Assembly: GCA_009602725.1 (NCBI GenBank)
Contig: WELB01000159.1
Span: 177,550 to 228,021 of the forward strand
Origin: Spirogloea muscicola
Taxonomy: Eukaryota > Streptophyta > Zygnematophyceae > Spirogloeales > Spirogloeaceae
Direction: 5' to 3'
Length of the DNA stretch: 50,472 nucleotides
Part shown: piece after piece, positions 9,301-10,859 of the stretch
Position numbering within the stretch: the stretch's first letter is position 1
How the letters are laid out: every line of letters begins with the position of its first letter
Translations under genes and position numbers: made by a program
Notes under the pieces: model-generated
Seen by the model: the letters and a program-made list of their open reading frames with translations, nothing else
What the model was told of the DNA's origin: nothing
Databases searched by the model: none

Positions 9301-10859
9301 GCTGCAGCTCAGAACCACTATCACATCAGTATTTGGGCCTCTTTATTCCTGGTCGCCCCTACAAGACGAGCTTACTCAAAGAGTACGCTCATGAAGGCTC
9401 TGTGCACTACTCTTCCAAGTCTTAGTGGAAAGCTTCATCCAATATGCAATTGTGTCCTTGCTGATGCAGAGAGGGTCGCAGGGTTGGCAACAGGATTCGC
9501 GCCAGTCTGAAGACGACATCATCAAGGACCTGCTGGAGAAGCATGACTTGGTGTCGGGCGTTCTTCAAGGGAGGCTCACGAAGCTGAAGGTCAGCCTTTG
9601 CTGTGGCGTTGACTGGGAAACGCTTCTTCTGAAGCTGTGAATCCCGGAGCTTAATGTGAGCTGACAGACAGTCCGAAGGTCCTGCAATACGCAGGTCATC
9701 AGGAGTTTCTGGTCAAAGGGTGACCTGAAGGGGGCCGCGGAGGCCATGGAAAGGATGCAAGACGATGCAGTAGGTCTTTGCTCAGTGGCTGTCGCATGCG
9801 CAGAGTGATGTGTAATTGAATTGCAGTAGTCATGCTTCTACTTACAACCTGATCCCACACTCAGCCCGTACGACACACAATTTCAAGATGGTGTCTGGAC
9901 GTATGATTCAGTATCTTGCGGCTGTCTTCTTGGGCCACTGCGTCGTGAGTACTGCCACTGCCAAGATTCCCCTGCCACATCGTGAAGAAACTCTGTGGCC
10001 ATTTGAGCACGTGGCAGATTGTGGTAGACGTGCTGGAGCAGAAGGGAAAGCAGCTGGATCTCGAGTGGGGCACCTTGATCATGCCTCTGCTGCTCGGCCT
10101 CCTGAACAGCCCCCACGAAAGGTTCGCACTTCAAGAGTTCTCAGCTTCCCAACAGGCCTCAAGGACTGAGCAGAATGGGCTTCTGTCAGGATGTAATCTG
10201 CTTCTGACTGTAGCCAAGAGCAGAAGGACCGCATGTCTTGGGCGCCGTGCCCTTACCTGCTTTACCCCCCTGCTTCCCCGGCTCCCACCCTCTGTACCTT
10301 CGGATTGTCCAGCTTGTTCATGTGGGGACAACCCGCGATGCTGACCTTCACATGCCTGCACGTGCGTGTCCCGACATGAACATGCAGGCATGTGAAGGTC
10401 AGCATCGCGGGGCTTGCGAGCCTGTGGAGGAGTTTCGGAGGCATGATCACAGCGTCCACTGTGGCAGCAAGCCCCCCTGGCGTCGACATTCATGCGGAAG
10501 AACGGTCAGTGCCATACAATGACGACATTGCCTCTGGTGGATAATTGTATTAGCAAATTTGTGATCCAATAATACAATGTTGCTGTTTAGATTATCACAG
10601 AAAGACTTGGAGCTTGTGGGTTCCGTGTTAGAACATGACTCAGAACAGACTCCTTAGCAGTTGAGTAATATGTATGCAAGCAATGTTACCGCTACATGAA
10701 CTTGGCTGCAGGTCTGCAGCTTATCAACTCAACCATTCTCTCTGCATCAGTCTGCACCTTACTTTTAGTGGTAGAATGTGGAACAGGCAGGAACGATGTC
10801 AGAGTTGCCTGGAGGGCTTCAAGGAGGTCGCGCTCAGGCTGACTGAGCTAGCCAAGTGA
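6324..10859 (+). CDS. KATNB1: Katanin p80 WD40 repeat-containing subunit B1
   Basis: Targeting and regulatory subunit of the microtubule-severing AAA ATPase katanin. Fifteen exons join in phase: 6324-6345, 6567-6703, 6820-6952, 7129-7358, 7483-7597, 7708-7778, 7887-7985, 8194-8331, 8512-8536, 8666-9189, 9470-9589, 9695-9769, 10018-10121, 10388-10504, 10787-10859. The product is 660 residues (human 655). The N-terminal half is a WD40 propeller with 'LVSGGDDGRAELCSL', 'VACVKFSPDGAWVVSGG' and 'MWDLEKFELIESTS', close to other katanins. A low-complexity linker (exon 10) precedes the con80 domain from about residue 499 ('VIRSFWSKGDLKGAAEAMER', 'CLEGFKEV'), which binds the p60 subunit. The 22-nt first exon and 25-nt exon 9 are inferred from phase. 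Exon 7 uses a weak GTGCCC donor. The exon 14 acceptor lies inside a perfect hairpin. Confidence 0.93.
10332..10411. repeat. 29-bp perfect inverted repeat spanning KATNB1 intron 13 and exon 14
   Basis: The arms are 10332-10360 and 10383-10411, with a 22-nt loop. The right arm contains the 3' splice site (cag at 10385-10387) and the first 24 coding bases of exon 14. The left arm is therefore an inverted copy of that exon start inside the intron. In pre-mRNA it would hide the acceptor in a long stem. Confidence 0.95.

Follow-up and report, generated by a model that had tools for sequence, protein, structure and literature searches.

Katanin p80 and its three copies

The window, by which we mean the whole stretch of DNA analysed here (50,472 bases; C159:177550-228021, in an assembly of 153.1 Mb and 471 contigs), contains six in-frame exons of katanin p80 (KATNB1). 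When joined, they match the Pfam model Katanin_con80 (PF13925) with an E-value of 1.2e-27 and the solved con80 structures of katanin p80 with a best E-value of 1.4e-9 (6gzc). The exon numbers 13, 14 and 15 are labels taken from an earlier reading and are used here without a full gene model.

9470-9589, 9695-9769, 9888-9944, 10018-10121, 10388-10504 and 10769-10855, + strand: the six in-frame con80 exons, from the Pfam and structure matches
10018..10121, + strand: the preceding exon ("exon 13"), from exon reading and three-copy alignment
10388..10504, + strand: a con80 exon ("exon 14") of 117 nt and 39 codons, from alignment and Pfam match; its skipping stays in frame
10769..10855, + strand: the following exon ("exon 15"), from three-copy alignment

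The earlier note on this DNA had placed exon 14 in the con80 region and described it as 117 nt long and in frame. The Katanin_con80 match bears out the first statement; the exon coordinates, 39 codons whose removal keeps the frame, bear out the second.

Searching the whole genome with the con80 model yields four exon matches with E-values of 1 or less, one of them above the curated cut-off, distributed over three contigs: C159 (the window), C70 (two matches) and C1. Across these three copies, all six exons examined keep their length, frame and AG acceptor, with Ka/Ks of about 0.12-0.24. After exon 9888-9944 the window has a GT donor (9945-9946); the aligned site reads GC in both C70 and C1, hinting at GC-AG introns or a shifted donor.

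The similarity extends well beyond the gene. Comparing 20 kb of each contig, C70 is collinear with the window from 2.6 to 20.0 kb and C1 from 2.8 to 21.5 kb, with gaps present. Aligned blocks are 10-13% apart in all three pairings, and the introns near the feature described below differ by 13-16% among the copies. Two of three test pieces taken from other contigs likewise gave exactly two further long matches each, at 84-89% identity (C10/C162/C253 and C130/C83/C268); the third fell in a repeat family and is uninformative on copy number. The assembly thus seems, from its sequence, to hold three diverged genome copies, about 10-16% apart, and we infer that these are homeologs. One repeat of about 600 bp (L012:3101-3704) has at least 39 other copies at 87-90% identity, with 40 of 6550 candidates scored. 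The genome contains many light-harvesting exons, one of which matches chlorophyll a/b-binding proteins of solved structures; judging from these exons, the organism is photosynthetic and presumably a member of the green lineage.

A perfect hairpin over a splice acceptor

In the window copy, the acceptor of the 117-nt exon lies inside a hairpin.

10332..10360, + strand: left hairpin arm, part of a 50-nt inverted tract, from inverted-repeat search
10383..10411, + strand: right hairpin arm, the retained forward copy, made of the TGCAG acceptor and the first 24 nt of the exon
10386..10387, + strand: splice acceptor (AG) of the 117-nt exon, within the stem, from exon reading and three-copy alignment

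The two arms are exact reverse complements of 29 nt each, separated by a 22-nt loop; in an extended form of 39 nt each, 92% of the positions pair and the gap shrinks to 2 nt. The right arm includes the AG acceptor and the first 24 nt of exon 10388-10504. The earlier note had described a perfect 29-bp hairpin at this acceptor with the AG and the first 24 coding bases in its stem, and the coordinates of arms and exon agree with it on both counts. Folding of the RNA from 10300 to 10420, proposed there as a check, gives a strong structure: the predicted energy is -78.8 kcal/mol, compared to -42.0 ± 3.6 kcal/mol for 200 shuffled sequences (z = -10.4), none of which folds as well.

The stem is far longer than chance would produce: perfect inverted repeats spaced by up to 300 nt reached at most 16 nt across three order-1 resamples of the window. 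As a genomic background we used 19 further loci at arbitrary places, three of which consist entirely of N. Their 127,553 non-N bases contain four perfect hairpins of at least 19 bp with a loop of 150 nt or less. The longest of these, 26 bp with a 98-nt loop (L020:4537-4686), is a candidate second case of the mutation type discussed below, template switching. Perfect hairpins of this kind are rare in this genome, but not unique. One hairpin in the window is longer (32 bp, 2228-2376) and was rejected as a second case: 16-nt pieces of its arm also occur in four other loci (L007, L009, L018 and L020) and a third copy of the arm lies near 1667, so it looks like a dispersed repeat.

The hairpin at the acceptor is absent from the KATNB1 copies on C70 and C1. 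Both lack the same 46 bp of intron, immediately upstream of the acceptor, while the exon boundaries and frame at the hairpin exon are identical and the other differences among the copies between 10300 and 10440 are single bases and one 3-nt gap in C1. Because both homeologs are without the same 46 bp, this segment is evidently a private insertion of the window copy, barring a clean loss of the same piece in both others.

A short intronic insertion with inverted arms could in principle be a mobile element, either a hairpin MITE or an introner-like element. The arms, however, match the local exon, and in place of the many dispersed copies of such an element, a genome search with 10300-10420 (E-value of 10 or less, very common words skipped) found nothing beyond the locus and its two homeologs. 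We rejected this origin, the probability of which we consider close to negligible.

A 50-nt inverted tract and its origin

The inverted copy extends beyond the 29-nt arm into the loop and can be laid out as follows.

10332..10381, - strand: 50-nt inverted tract, corresponding to the reverse complement of ancestral GTTCATGTCGGGACA-CGCACG-TGCAG|GCATGTGAAGGTCAGCATCGCGGG
10361..10366, - strand: six bases, CGCACG when reversed, present at the window locus only in inverted form
10316..10330, + strand: first 15 nt of the copied stretch in forward orientation, pairing with 10367-10381 except at 10324
10331..10331, + strand: one A at junction 1, left without a template by the simplest reading
10382..10382, + strand: A at junction 2, which could belong to either side (shared ACA)

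The source of the tract is one continuous ancestral stretch, comprising 26 nt of intron end with the acceptor and 24 nt of exon. It opens 26 nt before the exon with GTTCATGT, followed by CGCACG and the TGCAG acceptor, and its last base lies 24 nt into the exon. The reverse complement of the tract aligns without gaps to the homeologous loci at 47 of 50 positions in C70 and 46 of 50 in C1. Its last 29 nt are also present in forward orientation at 10383-10411, with zero differences. At 10324 the forward base is G; the inverted copy and C70 have C, and C1 has T. The forward counterparts of CGCACG are CGCACA in C1 and TGCACG in C70, one change each. A second inverted repeat (10309-10330 with 10367-10388) and the loop-side mismatches of the 39-nt arms are both explained by the single 50-nt tract. 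We also considered a 41-nt inverted copy followed by later substitutions on the right side and rejected it: the TGAAC bases belong to the far end of the same 50-nt tract, so later right-side changes are unnecessary. The inverted micro-duplication put forward in the earlier note was correct in kind, as both homeologs are without the copy, but the tract is 50 nt and not 29.

Inverted artefacts do arise in long reads, and a fold-back read at this site would leave an inverted copy in the assembly. Such a read would copy today's forward strand exactly. The tract is not an exact copy of that strand; it holds CGCACG, which is absent there and close to the sequence of both homeologs. The surrounding region, moreover, aligns well among the copies. 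An assembly artefact is therefore unlikely on the sequence evidence, and we regard an artefact of assembly or reads as a very slim prospect.

We conclude, with a probability of about 0.88, that the hairpin, which only the window's homeolog carries, arose through a single short-range template-switch mutation. A model with four free switch points lowers the edit distance of the 121-nt window segment from 47 to 8 when C70 stands for the ancestor, and from 51 to 10 when C1 does; in each case a homeolog 10-13% away takes the place of the ancestral sequence. In all six solutions listed, the points fall in the order 3<1<4<2, with a loss of 3-8 nt from point 1 to point 4. A four-point model is flexible, having many free parameters, and improves the fit of shuffled insertions too, though never as much as that of the real one: with the 46 inserted bases shuffled and C70 as the ancestor, the mean cost falls from 47.2 for linear alignment to 23.1, and 100 of 100 shuffles cost at least 18. 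Copying in the order forward, reverse complement, forward thus describes the segment far better than linear alignment. Source and insertion together span 96 bp (10316-10411), a proximity in keeping with a template switch inside one replication fork, and both of the two homeologs provide an outgroup without the event. Two three-way alignments, covering about 11 kb, contain eight private insertions of 10-400 nt. The hairpin insertion is the only one for which an inverted source lies no more than 150 nt away; that source is 29 nt long, compared to 8 nt for the next best of the eight.

The event would have proceeded in four steps. Replication would have run through the old intron end up to ...GGGACA (point 1) and switched to the complementary strand at a position 24 nt into the exon (point 2). 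From there it would have copied 50 nt backwards over the acceptor as far as GTTCATG (point 3) and then returned just before TGCAG (point 4), with about six bases (CGCACG) lost from the forward strand. The net outcome would be a gain of 46 bp and a 29-bp stem containing the acceptor. We infer replication, or polymerase switching, as the mechanism from the pattern only. The order 3-1-4-2 appears to be its own mirror image. By the rule given in Walker et al. (2021, PMC7954356), intra-strand switching is possible only where point 2 precedes point 1. Here point 2 is ahead of point 1 in either reading direction, so the event fits inter-strand switching, in which the second template is the other strand.

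Template switching that creates perfect hairpins has already been described (Monttinen and Loytynoja, 2022, PMC8794818; Walker et al., 2021, PMC7954356). In these papers' accounts, as here, a local reverse-complement copy inserted in one step produces a perfect hairpin, and the event may show as a single large insertion in an ordinary alignment. Their cases come from great apes, mammalian microRNA loci and rRNA genes, whereas the present one lies in an alga, has its stem over a splice acceptor, and is judged against two homeologs of the same genome. The majority patterns in Walker et al. are 1-4-3-2 and 3-2-1-4; the type 3-1-4-2 found here has no occurrence in the main text of that paper. Small inverted triplications, as presented by Lei et al. 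(2026, PMC13334657), resemble the insertion in having an inverted centre between direct copies, a small size and a replication origin. Here, in contrast, no segment is present three times: the flanks (15 and 29 nt) correspond to separate parts of the tract, and the 6 nt between them exist only in inverted form. All six listed solutions place point 4 after point 1, and we rejected this class.

The tract and its forward copies differ at one of 44 comparable pairs. The probability of one difference or fewer is 0.011 at an arm divergence of 0.14 and 0.031 at 0.115; it is 0.062 with the coding side frozen, and rises to 0.14 if the event is placed where the window's private branch begins. Because of the single difference in 44 pairs, the event probably postdates the split of the three copies, although these sequences bound its age poorly. 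The perfect arms do not require selection, since a template switch would produce them directly, although selection may still have contributed. Of the two explanations offered in the earlier note for the perfect identity, recent origin or selection, a recent or moderately recent origin fits the single difference and selection is not needed.

Possible effects on splicing and small RNAs

One further feature bears on the use of the acceptor.

10310..10312, + strand: an upstream CAG outside the perfect stem, also present in both homeologs; reading on from it meets a stop (by eye)

In the window copy, the predicted probability that the acceptor AG is unpaired is 0.0003 in all three sequence contexts. 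With the contexts taken in order of increasing length, C70 gives 0.50, 0.003 and 0.003, and C1 gives 0.32, 0.30 and 0.008. The predicted contrast between the window and its homeologs is clear only locally, and folding alone is weak evidence because the homeologs' AG is also predicted to be mostly paired in the longer contexts. The insertion also adds 46 nt to the distance between the acceptor and the pyrimidine-rich part of the intron upstream. The CAG at 10310-10312 ends 75 nt before the end of the true AG in the window and 29 nt before it in the homeologs.

The stem would probably lower acceptor efficiency in the window copy to some degree, and correct splicing of this copy should be lost only in part at most. 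The two hairpin-free homeologs would buffer the loss, leaving the mutation near neutral. Regulated skipping of the 117-nt in-frame exon is possible. The hairpin could even be a functional splicing switch, kept by selection, in which the masked acceptor would lead to regulated skipping and to a con80 variant with altered p60 binding. The position of the AG inside a very stable stem and the intact frame after skipping would suit such a switch. However, the hairpin is private to one of three copies, and its origin accounts for the perfect pairing without selection; we consider a selected switch improbable.

The hairpin could also be a source of small RNA. In the inverted-duplication model of plant microRNA origin, an inverted copy of a coding sequence reportedly yields a hairpin antisense to its source. 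The insertion follows the same scheme, with an inverted coding copy forming an antisense hairpin, on the scale of tens of bases within one gene and not of a gene-scale duplication. If the stem were diced, the left-arm strand, antisense to the exon start, could silence katanin p80 of all three copies. The antisense match is 24 of 24 nt for the window and C70 and 22 of 24 for C1, and Piwi-domain (Argonaute-like) exons are found on four contigs. Against this, none of six candidates in the genome matched PF14622, the single RNase III model applied, in a search that exon-split genes could escape. In addition, no Rfam family was found at the gathering score across the whole window of 50,472 bases, and a known RNA family was rejected on this ground. 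Silencing by a stem-derived small RNA is, in our view, very unlikely.

The nearest functional precedent, by analogy, is the splice-site-overlapping microRNAs, described as hairpins over an exon-intron junction and lying at the acceptor in miR-34b and miR-412 (PMC8465124). The hairpin here likewise spans an exon-intron junction (the AG and 24 exon bases); compared with those described in that source, it has a perfect long stem and an algal host, and is known from sequence alone. A template-switch hairpin on a splice acceptor was not found among the titles and abstract openings listed by literature searches, a weak negative. The mutation type is known; its setting here is unusually well controlled, with two copies for comparison in the same genome.

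The locus is a fully readable case of a long perfect RNA stem arising in one mutation: a known class of mutation, in a neat and possibly consequential place. It also carries a caution, in that an intron arm that pairs perfectly to an exon need not imply selection. Two further copies of the gene in the same assembly, both without the hairpin, are natural controls, and homeolog-specific transcript counts could show the effect of a new 29-bp stem on an acceptor. It is a long shot that the acceptor acquired a regulatory RNA element all at once, through one replication slip, an element by which the con80 exon of this homeolog would be conditionally skipped and/or an antisense small RNA would act on all three katanin p80 copies. 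If true, a splicing element would have been born in a three-copy genome that keeps the before and after states side by side as a built-in control.
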